DNA from: Owenia fusiformis | Lineage: Eukaryota; Annelida; Polychaeta; Sabellida; Oweniidae | NCBI GenBank assembly: GCA_903813345.2 | Contig: CAIIXF020000009.1 | Coordinates: forward strand, 26,200,740-26,264,739 | Reading direction: 5' to 3' | Length of the DNA stretch: 64,000 nucleotides | Shown: positions 26,201 to 56,200 of the stretch, one piece after another | Layout: every line of letters begins with the position of its first letter | Position numbering within the stretch: position 1 is the stretch's first letter | Translations under genes and position numbers: made by a program | Notes under the pieces: generated by a model | Database searches by the model: none | What the model was told of the DNA's origin: nothing | What the model saw: only the letters and a program-made list of their open reading frames with translations

Positions 26201-29200
26201 GGTCCCCTGAGAAAGTTCCTGCTGCAGAAGTAAGTTTTCCATTGACTGTTAAGGCTTCGTACAATTTGTAGTACTTATTATTTTTTGTGAAAGAAAAATA
26301 TCAAATTCCCCCTTAATCTGTCCTCACAAACAAATACTGATAAAAAATTATATTTGACTCGTTGTGCATCTTTGCCATCCTGGAGTGCTTTTATGTTATA
26401 TTGAGGGGTTGTGTGTTAATGCTTCACTTTTTACTACTTAACTCTTTTACTCTTAGCACAATAAGTGTGTATTTCAAATATCCAATATTTGACTTGTAGG
26501 CCATCAGCGCCCTTATGGAGTACTTAGATAGCAACTTACTGACCCTGAACAACAATCTTCTTCGAACCAACTTTGATCGCATCCTGGATTCTATCTGGGT
26601 AGAGGTCCTTGAGGAGATCAGAGATGTTGTAGAGTCTGAGGATCAGGTATTAATATCTCCCTAATCATGTACGGTACATGTATTTATTATGTACAAATCC
26701 ACGGTACAAATATTAAAGGCTTGCATCAGAGCTGGAATAATAATATTGACATGCTCAGATATATGCATATCATTTTTTGCAGTGCCTACATCTTATAAAA
26801 ATTCTTAAGATTTCAATATCTTATGAAATAGAAATTAGCTCTCCTAATATGCATGTACGATTCCATCTTGCACTAATTTTTAATTAATTCTACCAATTCA
26901 TTTTTCCAGAAAACTACTTTATTTCACAAACGTCTGTATGAGTCTCTGAACATCTTGGTGGACTTTTTCCATGCTAATGACAAGGGTCTTCCTCTCCAGA
27001 GGATGCACACTAAACAATATCAGGTACATGTGCACTTACTTAACAATATCAGGTACACTTGCACTTACGTAATAATATCAGGTACATCTGCACTTACTTA
27101 ACAATATCAGGCACATTTGCACTTACTTAATAATATCAGGTACATCTGCACTTACTTAACAATATCATGTACCATTGCACTTACTTAACAATATCAGGTA
27201 TATCTGCACTTAATTAACAATATCAGGTACATCTACACTAATTTAACAAGCAAAATAACATTAATAAAATAGGTTTTGGATGAAAAAAGTCTACAATGGA
27301 TTTTCTCACCAACTCGAAACTTTCGTTTGATTGAATAAATGCCACTTAAATTGCATTTAGGATGTCAATATGCCATATTTGGTTCAATTAATCAGATTTG
27401 TTTTTTTCAAAAGGAATTGAATTCCATACTGAAGCTGAGCTGTGAACATACGGATAGAGTCATAGAGGCCTACTACATTGACAAGATAAATAAACAGGTA
27501 TGGGTCAATGATATTGTTACCATGGCAAACATATTGTTACAATAGCAATCATCATATTGCAAGTGAATCAATAGTTCCATTCCAGTGTAAATTATAATGT
27601 TTGGGTTTAAATAGCAACTAACAAGATAATAAAGTTACAGAGTTGACCGTACCATACTGATAATATTGTGTTGCCAACGTTTTTTAACAGTCATAAAATT
27701 ACTAGTCAGGCATTGTAAACCCTGAAGTGATCACGTACATGTAGTTACAAAGCCGAGTTACAAAGTTGCGAGACCAACAATTCTACATCCCATGCAGACA
27801 ATTGAAGACTTAAGCATATTGATATTTCTTGATTTATTACAAATTAATGTTTATTTTAGAATACAACAGAAAGGGTTGACTTTGGCACACTGTCAGTGCG
27901 TGTGTATTACAATACAGATGCGGAGATACTATTTGTTGAGGTTCTTAATGCCAAGAACATTCTACCATTAGATGCCAATGGTGAGTTGTATTTCATAAGT
28001 GAGTTGCATTACTTTAGGTTATCACTGGTGAATTTAAACAATGAAACATTATGAGTATAGCCAGTGTAAAATATTGGGAGCAATCTTTTGGATAAACTTC
28101 TCAAATTGTATCTTATCATTCATGATGTAATCTGACAAAATTTGCATGGAAACAAACTTCAAAATCAAAGCCTGAAAACAAATCTCATGTTACATGATTT
28201 TTCAGAAAATAGGCACAACAAAAAGATATTTGAAAATTGTGTCAGCTTTAAAAAAAAAGCATTGTACCTTTAATAAAGCTAACGTAATGTTTGCAGGCCT
28301 GAGTGACCCCTTTGTTCTGATAGAGCTATGTCCTGCGCATCTCCATACGGGGCAACACCAGCAACAGACTAAGATCATCAAGAAAACACTCAACCCAACC
28401 TTCGATGAATCCTTTGAATTGTGAGTGCATATAGTAGCAAAGCATGCTGTTTATTCAAGCTTTCAAATAAAAAGCTATGTATTACCTGAATATTAGTTTC
28501 AGATTTAGGTTTACAACGATTGAAAACTTATTTTTGTAAACTTTCTGTAAATCCTTTAGATACTGTATTATAATTGAAAAGAAGATCAGAAGATGATTTG
28601 TTGATCTTCCACTGGTTGAGCCACATACCAGCCCCTTTGACTATAATGGTCGATTATTCATAAAATCATTATACATGTTATATTTTCCTGCAACATTAGC
28701 AGGGCACATTGCAAGCAGCCAGGCTCATGTGTGTTATTTACAGTGATGGACCATGATCTCATGTTTCGCAAAATCATTATATACATGTTATATTTTCCAG
28801 CAACATTAGCAGGGCACATTGCAAGCAGCCAGGCTCATGTGTGTTATTTACAGTGATGGACCATGATCTCATGTTTCGGAATGACTTTGCTGGTGAAGTC
28901 TATTTATCATTGAATCATATCCCGGGGATTTCTGGTGAAGACGTCTCAGGATTCACAGCCTTGACCCCCCTTACTTTACCCCTGATACAGCCCCCAAAGA
29001 ATGGTAAGCTATTGCTCATAGGTTTCATAGTAGTCAGGGGGGAGATCTCCACAAAATTGAGTCATGCGGTATCGACGGTATAGTCTTATTTATATTATAA
29101 ATTGTTCTAAGATAAATATTTTAACACGCTTTATGAAATATGTGTTTCCTAGTGACTGCGGACAGTCCTGCCTTAGCTGTATTAGAACGCAGACTACAGG

Positions 29201-37748: not shown

Positions 37749-40700
37749 TTATAATTCATCCTTCTGTTCAATCTCTTCCTCGCCTTCTTCTTCATCGACT
37801 TCATCCTCATCTTCTCCCTCCTGAAACCCAGAGATATTTTCATTAACTTTGTGAAATTTTATTTTTGAAACATTTTCATTACTTTGGTGAAGTTTTCTAA
37901 TCATCTTGGTGAATATTATCATCATATTAGTGAAATATTCACATTATCTTGGTGAAATATTTCCATTATCTTGGTGAAGTTTTCTCATCTTATCTTGGTG
38001 AAATAATCTCATTATTTTGGTGAAGTTTTCTCATCATCTTGGTGAAGTTTTCTTATTATCTCGGTGAAGTTTTTTCATTATCCCTATGAAATATTCTCAT
38101 TATCTCTGTGAAATATTCTCAACAACTTGATTTTCCAAATATTCAGCCCTTACCTCATCACTTGGGCCAGAACCCTCTTTGCCACCAGATTGCAAGAATT
38201 TAGTGAATCCTTCAAGAGTTCTCTCTCCATTGTAGTCAACAATCTAAAATCAAAGAAAAGACTATAAATGTGAAGGCAGTATAGTGTACCATTACTTGGT
38301 GGATATGGGCACAGTTTTTAAGATTGGAGTCCAAATGCTCAATTATGAATATATCATTTGCAGATTGTTCAATCCTTCCTTAAACATTGACCTTTGGTAT
38401 TGTGATAGATTTGACAAGCTTTGTACGGAGTTCAGTGCTTAAATCCTTAAACCTTTTGATTACCACCCAGATCTAAAAGAATCATGAGGTAAGTTGTTTC
38501 TTTTCCAGGCTATTTTTGGTGACGGAACACATTTCAGATATTGGCACAAAATTAAGTGTATTTCATATTAAAATAAAACAAACATCCCACTAAATATTTA
38601 CATACCTCATCAGATCCTTTGGGGAAGAATTTTAGAGTTGGGAAACTCTGTACTTTGACACTCTCAACCTCGTTGGTTGTGGAATCCATCTTGGCAACGA
38701 CGACATCTTCATTGTCCTTGAATTTCTCGGCAAGCTCATCCCAGATTGGAGCCAACTGTTTGCAGTGTCCGCACCATGGGGCATCTGTGAAGAGACATTA
38801 GGTTTAAACAAAACACAAGAAACCATGGTAACTTTATTTTAGCTAATGAAGGACATTTGAAGTTTTTTGGTGAAGAATGAGAGGTGTTGTTCTAACTTCT
38901 CTAATTCAAATATTGCTAAACATAAACAAACCTGTGTGATTTTCCAGGATAGAATTTATAGTTACAAAATGTACTGTATCAAAAAGGCATAGTAGTAGAG
39001 AGTGTAAAATGTTGGAAACAAACTTCCAAAATGATGCTTAAATTTTCTTATATGCTTATCTCCTACTTTCATCTTCTGAAAAAATTTAGATACCTGATCA
39101 GATATAGAAGTTATTGAAGATTTAAGGTCTAACTATATGAGCAAAAATATTACAAAATTGTGACAATATTTGGAAATTCGCTCTCACTACTTCTTTTTGT
39201 CCATAATAATAATATTTATTGGATATAAAAAAAAACTTACAGAATTCTACGAATACATTTTTCTCTTTGTTAAGTGCTACTTCTTCGAAGTTCTTTCCTA
39301 CGAGAACCTTAACTGGCTTGGCATCCCAATCTTCTGGTACATCTTCAGTCATAAGATGGGGTTTAAGGGATCCATCGAGGACAGAGCTGACGAACTTCTT
39401 GACGGCTTCAGTTGAGAGCTCATCAGTCTCTGGCTTGTATTTGACCATATCTTCCCCGAGAGAGATGTATCTGACAGTTGGGACATCTTCAGTCTTGAGT
39501 CCAAAGAATTCCAAGATTCTGGCATTTTCTTCATCATCAACATTGATGTAGATGAAGAGGACCTGAAATAGAAGATGGCGACAGTGAATAAACTTTACAA
39601 CCCATTTTAACCATTTACAACACGAATGATTCCAAAATGATGCAAAATATATTCTGATTTCTCTCCAAAATGTGAATGATTATTAGATTTTATTGCATTT
39701 CAAATTCAATTGCATATAATTTAGAGTGAGGTGTTTCTATAGTTTCTCTCTATTTTATAGTTCAAAACAAGAAACTTACTGTTCTCTTCCTCACGCAAAA
39801 TAAAACCAAACACTACAAGATTTTTTTTTCATCTAGGTTTCATTATTTAACAAAATGATTTAGATAGAGATTACATATACGATAGATTATAAATACATGT
39901 AGATTAAGTTAAGAGCATCAATTCGATAAAGCATGAACAGTATAGATACGATCATCATACAATTATAACACAAATGGTATACACTACTGTACCTACATAT
40001 ACAGAAGCTCAAAGGTTGTTTGGGATCAATCATAAAATAAAATATTGTTAGTAGGGAGAATCAGAGGATTCAATTGAATCCATAAACCCAAAAGCTTTCA
40101 TTTCAAAGCATCGCTAAACTATGTTATTGAATCTCTAATTCCCCTTGTATTTTAACATAATTATAACATACCAGGTTTTAATACCAAATTCCAGGTCTAT
40201 GTGTATTCCCAAACAAAAAACTGTTAAATACCTGCAGGTTCTGGTCCAGTTGTTCTTTGTATTTATACATAACCATGTCTCCGGGGAAAAATTCACCCAA
40301 ATTTAACCAAAATCAGATCTGTTCAAATGATAAGTTAAATATGTTGAATTTGTTTCAAACCAATATTTCCACTCATAATCGGTTAGTCGGGTAAAAAATC
40401 AATGAGAGGGACTGATCTATGGGCCAGATCAAATACCAAAGTATATTTCTGCTAAAAAGTATGTAGAGGAATGGGTGATTTAAGGTTAGGTTTTGTTTCT
40501 TTTAACGAAAGTGACAATGGAGAGGGGGCTTGAGTTTTGTAAAATTAGCTTCATGAAAAAACTGGTATTTTGACCTTGGCCCTTAAAATATAAAAAGTAA
40601 TAATAAAAACAAAATCAATAAAAGTCACAAAGATGAGACAAAAATATGAATCAATTTTTAGTGTTTGGGAAAATTATTTTTCACAACATGCTGTAATTCA

Positions 40701-43700
40701 CATAAACAAAAACAAGAACCAAACTACAGAATGATAAACAAACGTGAATTTGTAAAGTGTCACCTCACTACGGAACTCGGGGGCAGCCCCTTCTAGCATC
40801 TGAATCAATGCTTCTGATTGGTCGCTTTTCATACTTAAAAAGAGAAGGACATGCTGCTCGATTCTTCCACTGAAAATCTTCTCGGCAGACTGAAAGTGTT
40901 GTACAGAAGAAATGTATTAAACCAAGTTAGGAATGTGATAAAACCTCACCTCATGAAATTGAACCTGAATCACATTTGAAAGCAAATTTCCAAAAGCCAT
41001 GCCTTTTCTTATTTTCCGAAAGCTAGCTCAGAAATATGATTTCAAATGCCAATCAAAGTACACAATTTTCTGGATACGCCTTCCCCAAGTTCCTAATGGG
41101 CCTGCTGAAAAAAATTCACATTAACACGCATGTTCCATGCTTGAATAGTAGTCGACATACTTCTCCTTTGAAGTCTCCAGCGGCACCTTTGTAATCATCA
41201 AGAGTGGATTGGAAGTTATCAGTCTTCTTGCTAATGAACAACAGAATGTGTTTCTTCTGATCTCCTCCGAAGATCTTTTGTGCGCTCTATAATGAAGAAT
41301 TTGAGACTTTCTACAAATATGCAGCCTAAGAAAACAATAAATTGGAAATATCAATTCCATGTTCTAACAACTGTTTCATGTACATTTCAAAGTTCTGACT
41401 TTTTAAATTTTTTGACTATTTGATCTCTGTTTTCTATAATTGCTGGGCCATGATTAAGATATCTATGAATACTTGAAGATATCATTAAATAACTGACAAC
41501 TGAACATCTAAAGATTGAGAGCACTTCCAAAGTTTCAAAATATTTCAATATTAATGCTATAATCAATATTTATGTATAATTATGTTACGATGAACAGACT
41601 GCATCCATGTAACTATAGCAAACTTACCTCTTGGGTGAACTCAACAACCAATGGAAGCTGGTTGGCTTGAACGAAAGCAGTGATCTTTTCAGCATCATAT
41701 TCGCCATCATAGTCGTTGCGGCCCTCATCAAACTGAAAAGATATTATGATGAATTATGTACAGTCCCCATTCTAGATTCATTTTCTATTCTTCAAAGACT
41801 CAAGCTTCTGCAACTTTACTGTTCGAGAATATATAACATATTATGAAATATTAAAATTTCGTATGAAAACTAGAAAAACATGTTTTACTTTGTGCTGGTA
41901 AGAAATTGATTCGATAGGATCTTTATGAAAAATAATCATGGAGTTTCCAGAAATTGTACATTTAGTATCAAAGTAGAAATAGGAAGTATGATACATATAG
42001 TCAAATTCAGTCAGTCCTGAGTCAGTTTTAATTAATCAACCAATCCGGCTTGGTGCAATATTCTCACCTTCTTGAAAAGTACGACAGCATCTCCCTCAGC
42101 TTTGTTCTCTTTGGCAACATCCTCGTTGCTGGTGATGTAGAATGGAATGTCATCGATACCAGATGCAGCTTCCAAGAAAGCCTTGGCATTTTCATTTGTG
42201 TCATCCTAAAACACAACAAAGACCATTGGTTTTAATAGAATATAAAATGAAGTAGGATGACTTTAGAACGATCATTACACTGGTAGTTCTCAAACAAAAA
42301 GCATTTTCATTCAGATATTTATGGGTGAAATAGCTTCGTACTAGACACCCATTATAGTCTATTACATCTTTATTCAATTTCTCTTGATATAAGAGGTCAA
42401 ACTAGATTTTTGAAGCCTTGGTTTTGCAAAAAATACAACAGATGAGAGGATGATGGCAAATTTTTTTGTTAACCTAATGGTCTTCCCCTCTTCCAGCACT
42501 CAAAAATACCTGGTAATTTTATTAATATCTGCTTAAACTGAATGTTAATTTGAATTCCAGAAACATGTTTTTGTATTCAATAGAACTAAAATAATACAAA
42601 TGATCCTCAATTGCTTAATTATCAATAAATACTGCAATATTGAAAACATACTTGATATCCGGGATGTTATGAAAACCAGTAGGCCTACATGTGGCAGTAT
42701 TACTTAAGACACCTGTTGCAATCTCGAGATTGTTCATCTACTTATTGATTATCTCGGTTAATATTACAAGCTCAGCATGTATTATGAGATGGTTGTGAAG
42801 TGGACTCAAACCAAGCATTATTTCAATTGAATATAGACTGGCATTGAGCTTTGAGATAAATGAAGGATGCACAGAATGGCCATAGCCAATGGGGGTTCAA
42901 GGGGTTCATGCGAACCTCCAAGTTAAAAACTCCCCAAAATTCATTAATTAGATAAAGTTCAAACGTCTACTGCATTCATATATGTAGTGTAATGGTCCCA
43001 CTCGTATTTATAACAAGGGTGGGATGTCTAGGAGCAAAATTATTCATTAAGATATTAAGACATACAAGTATAGTAACTGGCCATTTAATTAAATTCTTAG
43101 ACTTATTTTTTTTCTGGAAGGTACTGACGCAATGGTATATCTTTTAGAATCAATATTTTATAATGAAGTGTATTTTTTTTAAATCTCAAATAAAATAAGA
43201 TTCATGTTGAAATGAGTGATAAATTATTTAACAAATCCATAATGACACAATGGTGTGTCTTTTCAAATCAATACTTTATTATGAATTGTATTTTTATTTT
43301 AATCTCAAATAAAATATGATTAATCAGAATGAAATGGATTACATAAATACGATCGAAAAAATGAGAAAGGTAGGGCATAAGGACAAAGAACATTATAATC
43401 TTTTATGATCAATATTTAACCTTGCTGGGTTTCGACTCACATGGACAAACTAGTGACAAAAAACAAATACCAACTTGACATTAAAAGGTATAGGTTATCT
43501 CAAACAATTTCAGATGGTTGAATTACAACTATTTTCTGGCCAGGTAAACAGGCATATCTTTTGAATCAATACATTATCTCAGGGTAAAGTATTGGACTGA
43601 GTAAGGTAGCGTGTGCGGTGCATGTCCATGGAAATTTAGCAAAAATAGAACCCCCCCACTTGAGAAATCTTGGCTACAGGCTTGCAGAGACTCCATGCAA

Positions 43701-46700
43701 GACTTCTTAAGACTACCATTTGTACAGTTCTCCTGTTTCTCTTTGTAATACACTGGGGGTAACCATACTTGATACACAACTTGACTTACCTAATTTAATT
43801 TATAACATGTTGAAGCAAACGGAGGCCATAAAACAATAGAATATACATGTACATTGACTTTCACTAGAAAATACTGTAAGACATGTCCTTTTCAATGCAC
43901 ATTTGTCACATTATTCATGAAGGATACTCAAATTTTTTCAATTTCAGATGTCTCAAATGAAAAATGCATAATTACGTCAACTACAATAGAAAGAGTGAAT
44001 TCATTTTGTTGTGAAGAACTGTTATAATTCAACTAATGTTTTCTGTGAAACCAGAATATTATAATTGAAAGGTTTTACAGTAATATGTCTGAAAGTAGAG
44101 TAGCTGATAACAATACATGCTATCAGAAGATAAGGCTGAGAGAAAAGCATGTGGTAATGGAAATGCGTGATCTTGGTCTTCTCATCTTACAGTGAAATGT
44201 GCAATTTTTATAGAATAAGTGGATAGAATTATGGAATATAGGGAAAGAACTGAAATTAGACACATTGAGGGGATTTAATTTAAATAAGTGATACCTTACT
44301 AAATGGACATCAGAAGTCGAACTTACATTCTGCCACATTTTCCAATGTATTGATCCAATCATGTATTAAATTGCGATTAAAACTGGAAACACTAGTTGGC
44401 TTTCTTTACTATCAAATGTGATTGATGGTAGTTTTTTCTAAAGGTATAACATACACAACCGTATATTGATTTCAAAGTTGAATGATACTGGTGAATTTAG
44501 TTTTTATATGAAATGCAGCTATTTCAGAGGAAAGGCTTGAATGATGGACAATATGCAGGTTATATTAAAATTAATACTGAAAGCACCTACGTTCATTATT
44601 ATATGTTACATTTAACATACATTTAACTCAGGTGAACATTTCACTGAAAAATTATGTTTCAATTATTCAAACCTTAAACCTCAACTCAGAGAAGGTGAAG
44701 ATATTTTCCAGTTATACACACATGTGAATAAAAGACCCTATGCTCATCTTAAACCCAGTATGTATATCAATTGTCCTACATTTTTGATGATCAAACTACA
44801 CAATCAAATTGTAAAATTTCAATTTTAAATACTATAATTATAGCTAGTCATAATAGATAATGGGGTCAAATATGTCGACATTAATTGTTTAGATCACTAT
44901 AAATGCCTGACAGCTGTTAAAACAAATTATTCAATAAAAAAGGGATGAACGTGTCGTTCTAAATGATGATGTGGACTTCCCATATATTTCACGTGGAGAG
45001 TCACACATTGTTATTACTAATGTATGGAGTGAATTGACTGAAACCCAAGGCAGTGGTCTTAGCACCAAACTTCTGTCTTGCCCTCCGATCCCCCTCCAAG
45101 TCTCCATAGCACATGCTTAGTGAAAAATTTTGAGAGAGGAGGGCAGAAGCAAGCCATTTAGAAGCTTCTCAAAAGAACACTGTTTAATAAAAGATATCAT
45201 AGCAGGAAGTTATGGTCTGCAATTCTTACAGGATGTATCCCAAGATTAAACAATGTTCAGCTGAAATGTGGATGTGAGGAGTGCCTTAATTAAACCAATA
45301 GAAAGACAAATACTTATGCTGCAAGAGGGTATTAATTCTGAATAAAATGACACATAAGTAAGCAACTAAATTGCAATTCAGCTCAGCAGCTACTTATTTC
45401 TATACGACTTCGTCTGAACAGCAAGTCAATTCTTAGTTTACCTATTTTAACATAGCTCAGCACCAAACTGATCAAAATACCCCATATAAAAGGATATGTA
45501 AAGTTCATGTCTCATGAAAATGAAAATTAACCACAAAGGGAAATATCAGATGTCAGCTTAATGGAAAACTGATTAACCAGAAAGAGAGCAGACATCAAAT
45601 GTGTGGGAATTATATGTTATTATCAAACAGTTTATGGCTATTTTGCTAAGTTTAATGGAAACAGAAAAAATGGCTTATAATTAGAATTGGAATAAGTACA
45701 ACATCAATGTTATCCTAGGTTGATATTCAACTGGGTGCTAAATCCTAATATTACATGTTCTGATAAAATATCTCTATACATGTAGATGTATTTCATTTTT
45801 GACAGGGACTAACATTCAGTTGCCTTACAATGGAGTGAACACTGAATATACTTTAAACAATAGACATACACCAATAGCAATTCAAGTTTTTTCCATGTGG
45901 GAATATATTTTGGAACAAGTCGGATAATGACAACAAAAACTGGTACACAGCGAATATGGCGAATATCAGCCATTAACTGATGTAAATATCATCTCTGCTA
46001 TGTGCACCATTCACCTATAGCTGTGCACTAGTAAATATAACTTAAGCAATGTAGCAGTACCAACCTTGAAGAATCCGATGACGGCAACCTCGTTAGCTTC
46101 GATGGCAGTTTTGGCAGCATCAACACTGTCCAAAACTGTGGCAGGGGGTCCAGTCTTCTTCTTCACCCAGTTGACGATCTCATCAGCAGTTCGGCCACCT
46201 ATATTTAGAAATTAACCACTCAAATTGTTAATTTTCTTCATACTGAAATATTTCAAAATTAACTAAATAATTTCATTTGTATATACTGTATGTTCTGTAC
46301 ACATACATAAATGAAATATATCTATTTATTGAATGCAATCAAGTGATTAATGAAGAGTAAAATAGAATACTTGATGTATATTTAAGTGATATGTGATACA
46401 GATCAATGACATAGTACTATAAATGTACTAACCCTGTTGCTAGGCAAGCTTATTTACATAGCAACTAAATTAAACAACATTTTTTGCACTCAATGTTAAT
46501 TCTGTTCTACATGAACAATATTCGCCATATATGATCATTTATAGAAAAAAAGGTTCAGCTTTGAGTTAAAATGTCTGGTTTTAAAATTTTGCCACTAAGC
46601 GAGGTTAAAATACATGCACACTGTAGTAACCACGTCATTTATGTCATTTTGAGTTTTGTCAAAATGCAACTCATGAATACCAATGCAGGAGACTCACCTG

Positions 46701-49700
46701 CATATTCCAAAGGCTTTCCATTCTTGAAGAATTTGAGAGTGGGGTAGCCTCTGACCTCGAATTTCTCGGCAAGTTTGGTTTCAACAGTTGCGTCACACTT
46801 TGCGAGTTTGATTGCAGAGCCCTCTGCTTTGAGAGCTCCAGCAGCCTTGGCATATTCAGGTTCTAGAGATTTGCAGTGTCCGCACCATGGAGCATCTGCA
46901 AATAGATAAATATATATTATATACAATCATATCACATATTAAATCATAGGAAAAATAAAAGGATGTTAGTAACATTTGTTATTATGAAGTAATAGTAATT
47001 CAGTCTAACGAATTCAGAATAGTTGATAAGGTTCTCCTTGGTGCGGCCTATTTATATCAACTTAGCCAATGAATTGAATTTGAACAACACACAAGTAGGC
47101 TTGTTTAGAGATTATTATTTCCTATGAAATATCATGCAGTTAAGAGGTCTCCTAACATGTGCTACTGTAGCTCAGTAGTGAACTTAATCAGATTATAATG
47201 AGTCTAGACAAACAGATTAGTGAGTCCTTGTACTTTGCTTGATTCGATTACATACATATCATACATTATACTGTGGATGAACATGTTCACATCGGATATA
47301 CCAATATAATGGATTATATAGCTTTAACAGCACTGATGGTTTGCAATGCAATAAAATGTTATATATGTAGAGTTGAAACTGATGAATTAAAATGGTATCT
47401 CATAGATTGTATGTGGCACCATGTTTGCCATCATTAATGATACAGATGTACAAATAAATCTTTTTTGTTAGCACTTTATAGCCCGTTCCATTTCATTGTG
47501 ACAATATCAATAAATATAATCAGAATATTATCAATAGTCTCGATTAATGTTTTATCGTAAATAAAAAAAACAATAGACTATTTTAACTTATGTGTTAGGT
47601 GTACAAAACCTGACGTGGCTTTTGCAGGATGGCTGGTTGCTATAATAAAACTGCTACTATCCTCTTTTTATTGATACAGAGTGATTGTAACTGTTATTTC
47701 TGTTATAGCATATTGTCTTTTGAGATAGAGCAGAAACATTTTATCTAATGTGAAAGAGATATCACAAGTTTAATTTTTAATGAAAATGTGATAGCACACA
47801 TTATGTATCTGTCCAATCACAGATACTGATTCCAATTCTAATGTTGAACAATGTAACACCAAACAATAAAATAAAATAATGAAAAAATCTATTTCAGACA
47901 GTTTTTAATATTTACATTATTCATGATATTAAAAGGCTGGGCAACTTAAGATGAACAGATAAGATAACAGCAAGTTATTGATTCCAGGAAGAATATGTGT
48001 TTATGTGACTATAAAGGACTATGTTCATTGTTGAAGAAATACATTATATGGTTATCGATAGCATCGGCTGTGCCTTTTGCTTTTCTGCATATGTTTTATA
48101 TGATATTAGTTCAGCTTTATCATTTTGTGGATCCCCATATGTTTAGTCATCTCCTTCCTTGACATTGTGTTTGAGAGTGAACGGGCAGGGATTTTACGCG
48201 GCAAGCCAAAGGGGAGGGGGCAGGTTTTTGATGCAACATCAGTGGTCATGGCAAAGTTGAGATACTGATAGAGAAATCAAAATCATTTTTAAATTAGGAT
48301 TAAAATGATAAAATTATTAATTTAAGAAGACAGATGTAAAAAATAACAAACATTTACAGTAACTAGATTGAAAGAGATATCTTATATTCAGGTAAGTTAA
48401 AATCATGATCCCAAAGAAAAGTTAAAATGACCTCATAAATAATTTCAAGATAACTTCAAACTTATGTTTCATACAGAATGCTCCATTCACAGCAAAGTTG
48501 TACATGTACTTATGATTAGGTTAGTCCTAAAAAGATAAAAATTGTAGCCACCATCCCCCGATGGGGAGCCATCATCCCCCGGTTTATTTCCTCACCCTTA
48601 TATGTTAGAGTGAGGGTGTTGGGAGGGTGCTTGACACAAGATTTTAGAAAACTCTGGCGCTGTACCAGTTATAACGTAGTTTTAAAAATGCATATACTGG
48701 CATTTTAACTCAATCAAATGGAAATGGTAAGCCTTACAGTTTACTGAAATTATACCCACATGTTCTGTTCTAATTAAATTTAATATACAATGCATACATA
48801 TAGCTCATACTTGCAGATGCTGCAATAAAAGTACTGTAAGTAGAATACATGATTTGGGCCAAAATTGTCAAATGTGAACCCCCCCTGGAAATTTTTGAAA
48901 ATTGAACCCCCCTTGGCAAATCCTGGCTACGGGACTGCTTGATTTCACAATCCCCTCCCTACTACCATACATGCAGTGATATAAACTACCTGAACTGAAA
49001 ATGATGCATCTTTTAAAAGCCAAACCAAACGAATACAAAGGGTACCTCCCTACTCTCTTTCTAATACATTATTGCTGAGGAAGATAGGATAGGAAAACCC
49101 TAGTAGAATACATGTATTCTGCACCAAGGTAACAGAGAATACTTTTTTGAATTCGAACATCAATGGTATTTCCCAGAGGTATTTCCTTCCTAACTTCATT
49201 GTACCGAGCATCAATCAATGTTAGCATGATCAATATATCTTTGTGTATTTTTATAATACAATATAGGTCTTCTTTCCAGGCTCCCCCCATCGTAGAACAT
49301 CTATGGGTCTAGCAATGGGTAGGGGCATGAGGTAAATAGCGATGCACAACATTGCGCACAGAATCAGACTTGAACAATGTTCAGAAGCAAGTCGGATTGG
49401 CAAAAATCTGATGATTGGTGAAACCAAGAAAATACTGGAATCAAGATGTAATTGAGAACACATGTAAAAGGAGCAGAAGTGAGATTCTACTTTTAGTTTG
49501 TATACATGACTTTCACTACACAACCACGTCATTCAATACATCTGTAGCAAAATGAAATGTACTCCACTTCCGGCTTATTCAGCACTTCTTGTAACGAAAA
49601 GTATACAGACTTTTTACATAATTACGGTCTCAAATAGTTCTATGGATAGTATATGATGATGCTTAGTATATGTGGTCATGATATGAAAATGCATTGAAAC

Positions 49701-49893
49701 GCAAAATCACAATAAAAATCGGAGACATTTTATAAAACTTACAAAATTCAGCAAGAACATAATTGTCTTCTGTAACAACTTCATCAAAGTTATCTGTTGT
49801 CAGCACTAGAACGTCCTTTTCTTCAGCAACTTCGGCGTTAACAGCAAAGAAGAGTGCCACTGCGGCCACGAGAACGGTAGAAAACTGCTTCAT
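37749..49893 (-). CDS. P4HB: Protein disulfide isomerase (PDIA1/P4HB type)
   Basis: Minus-strand exons are 49743-49893 (ATG), 46698-46895, 46065-46198, 42068-42205, 41628-41732, 41161-41286 (6A) or 40764-40889 (6B), 39241-39562, 38606-38784, 38154-38243 and 37749-37820 (TAA). With one exon 6 they total 1515 bases, or 504 residues, close to human 508. Order: signal peptide ([20 protein letters not shown]), a domain with YAPWCGHCK at 51-59, b, b', a' domain with the second APWCGHCK at about 393-400, acidic tail, KDEL. It forms and rearranges disulfides in the ER lumen and is usually also the beta subunit of prolyl 4-hydroxylase. An in-frame ATG 48 bases upstream (MDPYPK) exists, but the chosen start gives a clean signal peptide. 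No other gene overlaps. Confidence 0.97.
37821..38153 (-). repeat. Minisatellite in the last PDI intron
   Basis: From about 37830 to 38125 a unit near TCATTATCTTGGTGAAGTTT or TCATTATCTTGGTGAAATAT is repeated irregularly about ten times, with spacing of 28-32 bases. Both splice sites of the intron remain normal. Confidence 0.7.
40764..40889 (-). CDS. P4HB: PDI exon 6B, homologous alternative to exon 6A
   Basis: The exon is also exactly 126 bases and phase 0, acceptor CACTTTCAG and donor GAG/GTGACA. It encodes [17 protein letters not shown] and ends in AAPEFRSE. Identity to 6A is 18 of 42 residues by hand alignment, with the buried strand and the AA-F-E end kept. The frame is fully open and the borders intact, so decay is unlikely. 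The 271-base intron between 6A and 6B does not by itself enforce exclusive use; including both would keep frame but duplicate a helix-strand unit. Mutually exclusive splicing is the simplest inference. Confidence 0.85.
41161..41286 (-). CDS. P4HB: PDI exon 6A, start of b' domain
   Basis: The exon is 126 bases, phase 0 at both ends, acceptor ATTATAG and donor GAA/GTATGT. It encodes residues 243-284, starting [17 protein letters not shown] and ending in AAGDFKGE. This resembles the canonical PDIA1 sequence, and its basic surface (QKKH, KK) differs from exon 6B. The encoded piece is the first helix and strand of b', the domain that provides the main peptide-binding site in PDI. Confidence 0.93.
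42206..46064 (-). other. PDI intron 3, no gene seen
   Basis: This is AT-rich DNA without a supported frame. Positions 43125-43330 hold a worn tandem duplication of about 110 bp (CTCAAATAAAATAAGATTCA and CTCAAATAAAATATGATTAA). Confidence 0.6.
46896..49742 (-). other. PDI intron 1, no gene seen
   Basis: No exon or clear element was recognised. Near 48870-48950 and 43640 the motif GAACCCCCCTTGG/GAACCCCCCCA with TGGCTACGGG/TGGCTACAGG recurs, possibly a small dispersed repeat. The phrase AGCCAATGGGGGTTCAAGG near 42885 may be a third trace. Confidence 0.5.
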
Positions 49894-50352: not shown

Positions 50353-51030
50353 AACGGCAACTCCGCGGAGTAGCAAATCCCAACGAACAAAATATCAATT
50401 ACCGAATTCCAATCAATTATACTTTGGTTGAAAATGAAAAAATTAGATTTTAGAATTGCGAATTCCTGCAAAGCAGCCATTTTGAATTTTCTGAGGTACA
50501 AATCTGAAAACTAATACCATAATTGTGATCTACTCCAAAATTCCTTCAATTTGAGTATAATATAGCCATACTTTGAAGGGATTGAAAAATTATTGCGAAA
50601 TCGTACATTAGACGGCCATTTTGAATTTTACGAGGCTCGAATCAGAAAATTTCTGTTTTCCTGTCCCCCCATACATGGCCCCTGGGGGTCAGGATGAAAA
50701 ACACAGAATATATGTGAAATAGATAAATGTTGTGAATACACTACCAAAATTTCAAACAATAATATTGATTACTTTGGTTTAGAATGAAAGATTTATGATT
50801 TTTGCGAAAAAGTCCCGTCATTTTTAAAGCGGCGGCGATCTTTAAAAAATTTTTTTTTGCGTAAAATTATTAACCAATATACATCTTTCCACTAAATATG
50901 AAGAAAATCTGTCAACTAGTATTTGAGTTATCTTCCGGACAGACGGACGGACTGACTGACTGACGGACTGACGGACAGACGGACGGAGGGCTTCACTATA
51001 TCCCTAACGAACTTCGTTCGTTGGGATAAT
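50353..51030. mobile_element. ATCCCA-CGAAC element, copy 1
   Basis: The left edge reads ACGGCAACTCCGCGGAGTAG, then AAATCCCAACGAAC. The right edge has an ACGG/ACTG microsatellite, then TATCCCTAACGAACTTCGTT and CGTTGGGATAAT. ATCCCAACGAAC and GTTCGTTGGGAT are inverted. Copy 2 is at 53628-54799. Confidence 0.65.
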
Positions 51031-53215: not shown

Positions 53216-56200
53216 TCAGTTCAATCCAAGATCTGATAAATGTGAAAGTTCTTCAATGACTAGGTGTAGGATTTCATTCTGTTCTGCAGATAGATGGGGC
53301 CACAGTTCTGTTTGAAGCAGACGGATAGAGTTCAAATCTTTAGATTGACACGCCATCACCACGGACTGGAGAAGCAGGAACAAGTCTTCATTCAGATAAT
53401 TCACTGGAAAATAAGAAAAATGAAATGCATATTAATAAAGGGTCATAAAATTATATGATTTGGGAACATTTCTTTTTGACATGCAGGGGCTCACAAAAGA
53501 TACAAGGCATTAACATGCAAAACGTCACTACATGCCATTCGTTACAGATGCTGACCACTGAACACCAATCGCGGAACACCAAAATGAGGCAAAAGTTGGA
53601 GCCTCGACCAATGGTTTAACCAGAACAACGGCAACGCCAAAGCGTAGCGAATCCCATCGAACAGAAATGGCTGGCATTTTTACAAACGAATCGCAAATAT
53701 CATAAAACAACACACCAGAAAGGCCACCATTTTCAAAATGGTTGCTCACTAGCCAAGTTGTCATCAGAAGAAATAATATGCTTTTTAGTAGCCACCTCAA
53801 AAATTTTTGAAAAATCGCACACGTACTTGTAAAATAACACACATAAAAATGGTGGCCATTTTTCAAAATGGCCGGCTACTCCCTTAAGTTTTATTAGACA
53901 ATGTGCCATGCTTAAAGTATTCACATACCAAATATGAACAAAATCGCTCCACTACTTTTCAAGTTATAGTAAAATACGTTAAAATGGTGGCCATTTTTCA
54001 AAATTGTTTTCAAAATTCCCGCCTTCTACCAAAAGTGTCATAGGACAGTGTTATGCTTATAGTATTCACATACCAAATATGAACAAAATCGCTCCACTAC
54101 TTTTCAAGTTATAGTAAAATACGTTAAAATGGCAGCCATTTTTCAAATTTTTTTTCAAAATGGCTGCCTTCTACCAAAAGTGTCATAAGACAGTGTGCCA
54201 TGCTTATAGTAATCACATACCAAATATGAACAAAATCGCTCCACTACTTTTCAAGTTATAGTAAAATACGTTAAAATGGCGGCAATTTTTCAAAATGGCC
54301 GCCTTCTACCAAAAGTGTCTTTAGACAGTGTGCAATGCTTATAGTATTCACATACCAAATATGAACAAAATCGCTCCACTACTTTTTGAGTTACAGCAAA
54401 AATCGTAAAATGACGAGTAAAGGCCGCCATTTTTCAAGATGGCTGCCATGTGCTTCTTTAATATCTACATTTGTAGCATTATTAATGTCCTTTATAATTT
54501 TTTTACATTTAAAACATATTGCTATTACAGTTTTACATATTGCACCTAAATTACTGTAAAATCGTCACTAAAATGGCCGCCATTTTGAAATGAGCAGCCA
54601 TTTTGAAAATCGGCTCTCGAGCAGAACTTCTACCGCCATAGGGTATATGTGTATAAAATATGAACAAAATCGGGCCAACGGTATTTGAGTTATTGCCCGG
54701 ACGGACGGACGGACGGACGGACGTACGTACGGACGGACGTACGTACGGACGGACGGAGGCGTTCCCTATATCCCTCCGAACTTCGTTCGATGGGATAATT
54801 ACCAGTATGAACCCAACTAAAATGAATATGAGCATTATTTCAGACCAATAGCAGTTTTCATTTGTTCAAAAATTGTTGATGGCAGGACAGACAGAAGGAC
54901 AGACAGACAGAATGGAAGGACAAAAGGATGAGTGGACTGACAAGTGGGCCATTCAGAAGGGTCACCATGTGAACCAAAACAATAGTGAATACTCCATGTA
55001 TTTTTTAAAATGACTGAAGCCACATTGCCATGGTTACCATGTTCAGTATTGATTGAAAGTTGTTTGAAATAGAGTTCATCCATACATCTCTAAATAAATA
55101 GTGCATAGCGACTCCAACCATAATTTATTTCAATTTGTAACCCTTACATGTAAATTGGAATTTCTATTTCTACATTTAATACACTAGTATTTACAACAGA
55201 GATGGTAAAGCTACCGACATCAAGTTTGTCAGAATGTGTAAACTGGCACTGGGTAAAATAAATACAAACTCGAATTACATGTACCATAATAAAGCTGACC
55301 AGCAACAAGGAATTCAAGTTCAATTATTGTAACGATTCTCATGCTTATAACATCTTTCTGCTTCACTTCAATTTTAAATAATCACAGTGAGCAGTGTATA
55401 TGACACATTATCAACCAGGCACAGAAAGTAGAATTCATCACACAATCAGATCCCCAATCTGTTCATTTCATGTATGATCTTAACCAAGGGAATACACAAG
55501 TCGTGTCACCCATTCATAGTACAATGTTGTTGAAACTTGTATGAATAAATGAATAAATAATAAAATAACAATAAAAAAATTACAGTACACATATTAGTAT
55601 TTACTACGCGTGCTGGTCTTTATAACACATTGCATTATCTTGTTGTCATTATCATTTCTCATGGTATGAATATTATTATATTACATTGTATATTGCCTTT
55701 TATGATGTGTAGTATCTCTTGAAAGGCTTATATTGATATTGGATATGTAATATGTATGAAGCATGAATGTATGAAGCTAACAAGGCTGTAAATTCAAATG
55801 TTAATCTTTTTAATCAGGTAATCAATTCTCAGACGATGAGAAAAGGAGGAAGTTTTGTAATAATGTAATACAGTTTAATTCAGTCTGTATTCTTGAGAAG
55901 GGAAGTTCATGGTTGCTCCTGATAATTTCACAGCTTCTTTTATATGGTGGTAATAATTAAAACCAGCTATGTCAATAGATTAATATTTTTGTACATGATA
56001 CATGCGAAATGATCAATAGTCTAACAACATTTTTATGTCATCATATCATCATATCTATGATTTATTTATGTGAATGATATAAAATTATATGTGTGCAATA
56101 TTTCAAATGTGATGAAGCAAAACTGGAGACTATTAACTATGGAACATGAATAAAATTTTTATACTTCTCCTTTTGGAGGCAATGGGAGAATAAAGTGGCC

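Follow-up and report, generated by a model that had tools for sequence, protein, structure and literature searches.

A 64,000-nucleotide stretch of animal DNA from contig CAIIXF020000009.1 (hereafter called the window) carries on its minus strand, at 49893-37749, the complete coding region of a protein disulfide-isomerase (PDI) gene that can be assigned to the P4HB type. Our spliced model of this gene, rebuilt from the sequence, includes ten coding exons plus one extra. Exon 6A (41161-41286) codes for residues 243-284 (244-285 in the human enzyme), which comprise the end of helix H1, a strand and helix H2 of the b' domain, and exon 6B (40764-40889) is its homologous alternative. Very probably, this single gene experienced an ancient tandem exon duplication, selection has retained both copies, and splicing uses either one or the other to yield two enzymes of 504 residues each.

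The exon 6A and 6B pair

With either exon, the predicted product has two CGHC sites, ends in KDEL and begins with what by eye is a signal peptide. All ten introns are of the GT-AG type, and the frame is intact in all four combinations of the two exons, with 546 residues when both are included and 42 fewer than 504 when neither is. The 6A form matches TIGR01130, the PDI family of the endoplasmic reticulum (ER), with 532 bits against a cut-off of 344 (residues 26-504 over positions 1-476 of 476). When the 6B form is compared with the PDB, PDI (P4HB) chains that we take to be human rank at the top (642 bits, E 3.9e-192), ahead of PDILT (257 bits) and PDIA3 (247 bits). The family cut-off, the two CGHC sites and the KDEL end together argue that this is a P4HB-type PDI gene.

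The 6A and 6B exons both span 126 nucleotides, have phase 0 borders at both ends and contain no stop codon. Their acceptors (...ATTATAG for 6A and ...CTTTCAG for 6B) and donors (GAA/GTATGT and GAG/GTGACA, respectively) are in place. The encoded peptides are identical at 18 of 42 positions and positive at 30 (BLOSUM62 score 96), and the exons share 60 of their 126 nucleotides. An earlier note on this DNA, which had reported the pair, proved accurate in its coordinates, length, phase, splice sites, open frames and count of shared residues. The two exons are thus neighboring, homologous, equal in length and in the same frame, features shared with mutually exclusive exons.

We scored this resemblance against a control drawn from the window itself. 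There are 127,740 segments of 126 nucleotides on its two strands, and each of the 9,974 that are open was scored against 6A. The score of 96 for 6B is followed by a next best value of 10 (6A itself aside). Among the 53 open segments that are preceded by AG and followed by GT, 6A and 6B included, the best remaining score is -13. Likewise, none of 100,000 shuffles of the 6B residues attains 96, and the top shuffle reaches 28. The similarity of 6A and 6B is therefore not due to chance.

Each exon is also recognizable by itself. When 6A or 6B alone is used to search the PDB, the first seven of the eight listed matches are named 'Protein disulfide-isomerase' and fall at the homologous place, with best E values of 3.9e-7 for 6A and 0.0082 for 6B. 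The eighth matches, BAG5 and PDILT, are both weak. A Pfam scan of the two 42-residue peptides by themselves gave no match. A third copy or remnant was sought on the minus strand between 37,700 and 49,900 with stops allowed, and none was found; the next score there, 17, falls on exon 3.

Selection on exon 6B and the face of the b' domain that a swap would change

When 6A and 6B are compared by codon position, 20, 31 and 9 of 42 nucleotides are identical at first, second and third positions, respectively. Third positions are at the level expected by chance, and so the copies must be old. We simulated neutral divergence in 24,000 runs (eight divergence times with 3,000 runs each) with 6A as the starting sequence, a single kappa and the base composition of the introns, which makes them a rough guide. 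No simulated pair combines at most 9 identical third positions with at least 31 identical second positions, and so this pattern would not be expected if 6B had drifted freely. A looser set of criteria, which adds an open frame and splice sites, is likewise matched by none of the 24,000 runs.

Protein-level comparisons agree with this result. When 24 random amino-acid changes are made to 6A, similarity to human PDI as high as that of 6B is retained in 48 of 20,000 trials. The Pfam family Thioredoxin_6 scores the 6B form at 171.5 bits and the 6A form at 168.4 bits, and the match is complete (1-183 of 184). Both exons use codons more like those of the remainder of the gene than the base composition of introns would give, with the level of 6B reached by 148 of 5,000 recodings and that of 6A by 2 of 5,000. 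The earlier note had proposed an old tandem exon duplication that selection preserved, and the codon-position identities, the simulations, the trials with random changes and the Thioredoxin_6 scores all support this view. Both copies are intact, and the pattern of their differences indicates that selection kept both as protein.

Identity to human PDI is 20 of 42 residues for 6A and 14 of 42 for 6B. The human residue is present in 6A at eight positions where 6B differs, and in 6B at two positions (10 and 18) where 6A differs. Given the agreement at these two positions, 6A as it stands today is probably not the source of 6B. Rather, both exons have probably moved away from a common ancestor, with 6B having moved further.

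What would the exchange of one exon for the other do to the enzyme? Sections of a crystallographic paper on PDI with a subunit of collagen prolyl 4-hydroxylase (PMC9676403) assign the rim of the b' pocket of human PDI to Phe240, Phe249, Ile301, Phe304, Phe305 and Ile318 and its bottom to Leu258, Ile289 and Ile291, and His256 bonds with a tyrosine of MTP. They also place the CGHC sites of the catalytic domains at the start of H2 and the b' pocket in another region of the fold, which lies between H1 and H3. In our alignment to P4HB, all ten named pocket residues are present with 6A and with 6B. Exon 6 supplies three of these (the equivalents of Phe249, His256 and Leu258), which are the same in both versions, and the other seven are coded by exons 5 and 7.

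The differences between 6A and 6B are concentrated elsewhere. Using segment limits of our own, set from the naming in PMC9676403 and the alignment, we find that the exons share six of eight residues at the end of H1, none of four in the loop that follows, five of seven in the strand and, within H2, two of 14 in its first half and five of nine at its end. As a result, 16 of the 24 differences fall in helix H2 and its end. The net charge of the encoded segment is about +1 for 6A and -3 for 6B. The swap would therefore mostly rebuild the part of b' that matches the catalytic CGHC site, and would leave the named pocket residues untouched.

These observations bear on the claim of the earlier note that the swap gives the enzyme two client ranges by changing its main peptide site. 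In that reading, the exons are used on an either-or basis, and the exchange alters which peptides are bound by the b' pocket. We consider this doubtful, as the ten pocket residues do not change and most of the replaced residues are located in H2 and its end, away from the site between H1 and H3. Instead, we favor a tuning of affinity, packing or partner contacts over a replacement of client choice. Both forms would keep the hydrophobic pocket and should still bind unfolded peptides, and in collagen prolyl 4-hydroxylase and microsomal triglyceride transfer protein either form could still take the place of the beta subunit. The two would differ in charge and shape in H2 and in the loop that follows H1, and so perhaps in affinity, domain packing or contacts with partners. 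More tentatively, it is possible that splicing, under tissue or stage control, sets the partners of PDI or the opening of its domains without touching peptide recognition. If this were true, an enzyme with the same pocket and active sites could be switched among the roles of free chaperone, collagen prolyl hydroxylase subunit and lipid transfer subunit.

Probable choice between 6A and 6B

Either-or splicing is the best reading of the exon pair, and under this reading exon 5 would be joined to 6A or to 6B, and then to exon 7. The intron between 6A and 6B (40890-41160) is 271 nucleotides long, and that between 6B and exon 7 (39563-40763) is 1201 nucleotides long. We find no enforcing device of the textbook kind. 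A length of 126 nucleotides is divisible by three, and thus the frame provides no clue on exclusivity. There is no mixture of U2 and U12 introns, and the branch point is not cramped. Specifically, a branch-point-like TCCTAAC is present at -38 relative to 6B within an AG-free zone of 55 nucleotides, which probably places the 6B branch point more than 200 nucleotides from the 6A donor. A distant branch point for 6B of the type exemplified by OGDH (PMC7969005) was considered unlikely, given AGs at -55 and -60.

Part of a survey of 629 human clusters of mutually exclusive exons (PMC5740500) reports a clash of U2 and U12 sites for 5, steric limits for 57 and a length not divisible by three for 377, and from these counts an exon pair that lacks any enforcer is not odd. 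The same source recognizes mutually exclusive exons by reads that join each exon to both flanks and by none that join the two.

Because no textbook enforcer applies, control of the choice by RNA-binding proteins is most likely, and these would act on the weak splice sites of 6A. Predicted U1 pairing of the 6A donor is -1.9 kcal/mol, the weakest of the ten donors, versus -6.7 kcal/mol for the 6B donor, the sixth weakest. Upstream of the 6A acceptor are AGs at -20, -24 and -39. A simple model would be that 6A, the weak first exon, needs help, and that 6B is the default.

The pentamer GCATG, presumably the motif of RBFOX proteins, is found at +21 and +159 in the 6A-6B intron and once, at +73, in the 6B-7 intron. 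Its density is 7.4 per kilobase in the 6A-6B intron versus 0.95 per kilobase across the introns of the gene. Two copies are held by about 5% of all 271-nucleotide stretches of the window, and 11 motifs were tried. The longer TGCATG is absent from both introns. Although the two sites could be bound by RBFOX so as to favor 6A and hinder 6B, this excess is slight and is only a lead. As a separate observation, the in-frame AGs at -24 and -39 (41287-41325), if used as acceptors, would extend 6A and add a stop codon, which could be a way to shut off the 6A transcript.

Several observations weigh against exclusive use of two long-selected exons. First, the 271-nucleotide intron with its good branch site should be easy to splice, and the joining of 6A to 6B is not visibly blocked. 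Transcripts with both exons or with neither would also stay in frame. Second, base pairing between the introns, which the earlier note had suggested looking for, gave no clear signal when unbroken helices were scored in this one genome with 60 shuffles per intron pair. The longest helix is equaled in 17 of 60 shuffles for the 5-6A and 6A-6B introns, 30 for the 6A-6B and 6B-7 introns and 4 for the 5-6A and 6B-7 introns, and the corresponding counts for four control pairs are 48, 33, 6 and 57. Third, when both copies are constrained in simulation, mean third-position identity, at 12 to 19, exceeds the 9 found for the real pair, and even a looser criterion (third positions 12 or less, second positions 29 or more) is matched by at most 42 of 400 such runs, which reveals that the divergence model is rough. 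Fourth, codon usage gives no more than a moderate signal for 6B, and a search of bacterial and viral collections with the b' domain found no match and offered no animal relative. Finally, selection on 6B fits any use of this exon, including its inclusion together with 6A, and exclusivity is not proven by it.

Joint inclusion, always or sometimes, would lengthen PDI to 546 residues and repeat the helix-strand-helix unit of b'. The short intron between the exons, with its good branch site and acceptor, and the preservation of the frame by 126 plus 126 nucleotides would permit this arrangement. In contrast, the insert splits the Thioredoxin_6 match. In addition, the equivalents of Phe249, His256 and Leu258 and most of the buried strand are present in both copies, as expected for a single slot that is filled in turn, although the pocket-residue point is weak alone, since all three would be among the 18 of 42 identical positions by chance in approximately 7% of cases. 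We consequently regard joint inclusion as improbable. Even less probable is that the duplication left 6B as a fossil without function that is never or hardly spliced in, for although it is further than 6A from the human sequence (14 versus 20 of 42) and its donor GTGACA is without a G at +5, its AG and GT are intact, its frame is open (as are 5.4% of random intron stretches), its Thioredoxin_6 score is not reduced, and no neutral simulation matches its codon-position pattern; a very recent loss of its use may nevertheless have occurred.

Genomic context and comparison with known systems

The other exons of the model are all on the minus strand. The coding part of exon 1 (49743-49893) provides the start codon and signal peptide, exon 2 (46698-46895) the a domain with the first CGHC (Pfam Thioredoxin, residues 28-130), and exons 3 (46065-46198) and 4 (42068-42205) come next, with exon 4 coding for the b domain. 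Exon 5 (41628-41732; donor GAG/GTAAGT) carries the equivalent of human pocket residue Phe240. Downstream of the pair, exon 7 (39241-39562) codes for the remainder of b', including six of the ten pocket residues, and for the start of a'. Exon 8 (38606-38784) carries the a' domain with the second CGHC, followed by exon 9 (38154-38243) and by exon 10 (37749-37820) with the acidic tail, KDEL and stop codon. About 11.6 tandem copies of a 22-nucleotide unit (37866-38121; 77% matches) make up most of the intron that separates exon 9 from exon 10.

Elsewhere in the window, approximately four tandem copies of a 135-145-nucleotide unit (53846-54412) lie upstream of the PDI gene inside a repeat-like block, which has AAAATGG...CCATTTT motifs and, near 54698-54757, runs of CCGT (50936-50987 holds a similar one) and resembles an element of mobile or satellite origin. 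Visual inspection shows on the minus strand an open run of about 60 codons (53216-53403; NYLNEDLFLLLQSVVMACQSK...) that has an AG before it and TGA at its end and is probably the last exon of a neighboring gene. On the plus strand there is a weak, below-cut-off match to a C2 domain (28757-29080; E 0.0025). It may be an exon of another gene and is the sole match among the 10 of 79 open stretches that were scanned.

Searches of the source genome covered 498 Mb, and the counts they give are lower bounds. A search with 6B, at E values up to 10, matches only itself and 6A, and on this ground we rejected the idea that 6B derives from a paralogous PDI gene. An 801-bp DNA stretch matches the genome once, and no second allele, retrocopy or duplicate PDI gene was found in the genome search. 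Of the 35 protein matches listed, those off the locus are fragments with 31 to 67% identity. A Thioredoxin_6 search gave three pieces, one of which is PDI exon 7; exon 6 was not picked out. Four weak matches to the a' domain in bacterial metagenome-assembled genome (MAG) records (L001-L004) were not used.

The molluscan origin assumed by the earlier note is not upheld, as the genome has at least three matches above cut-off (one with an internal stop) to the erythrocruorin-linker family PF16915, which we take to be an annelid family. No match was found in the genome for the haemocyanin beta-sandwich PF14830, which we take to be molluscan, although such a blank search does not show absence. Neither family matches any of 14 control genomes, a result of little weight because those named are prokaryotes. 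COX1, used as a species marker, had no match. The source animal is likely an annelid.

PDI has been studied mainly in vertebrates and yeast, as an enzyme with one form, and we know of no second form of exon 6 in human P4HB. The extra exon thus distinguishes this gene from human P4HB, which otherwise has the same domains and pocket and to which the 6B form aligns over residues 10-501 (E 3.9e-192). No report of a PDI with such an exon pair was found among the papers listed by the literature searches, outside of which most subscription papers fall, and automatic gene annotations may already list both isoforms. The terms 'P4HB' and 'disulfide' are absent from the main text of both PMC9741552 and PMC5740500.

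As described in parts of these two sources, tandem duplicated exon substitutions and mutually exclusive exons resemble the 6A and 6B pair in that they are old neighbors with the same length, phase and frame, and in that core and binding residues are kept while their surroundings change. For example, an exon pair in Drosophila Cacophony retains 16 of 39 residues, including those that bind the beta subunit (PMC9741552), much as the PDI pair retains 18 of 42 with its pocket residues. In contrast to PDI, a folding enzyme of the ER, the known events are enriched in ion channels and other transmembrane proteins (PMC9741552). Also comparable are the a and e alternative exons of spiralian COQ2 (PMC12403961, PMC7434440) and the AOX pair of oyster (PMC5589949), where an annelid or mollusc gene for an enzyme likewise has two homologous exons that serve as alternatives. 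According to the sections cited, those pairs have transcript support, whereas the PDI pair is known here from sequence alone.

A pair of b' variants whose silent sites are saturated constitutes a ready-made mutant set that separates unchanged residues (the pocket and most of the strand core) from those that have been remade. Such a pair would allow any role of b' beyond the pocket to be tested in a natural system, and would extend the known set of ancient exon swaps to a chaperone of the ER.
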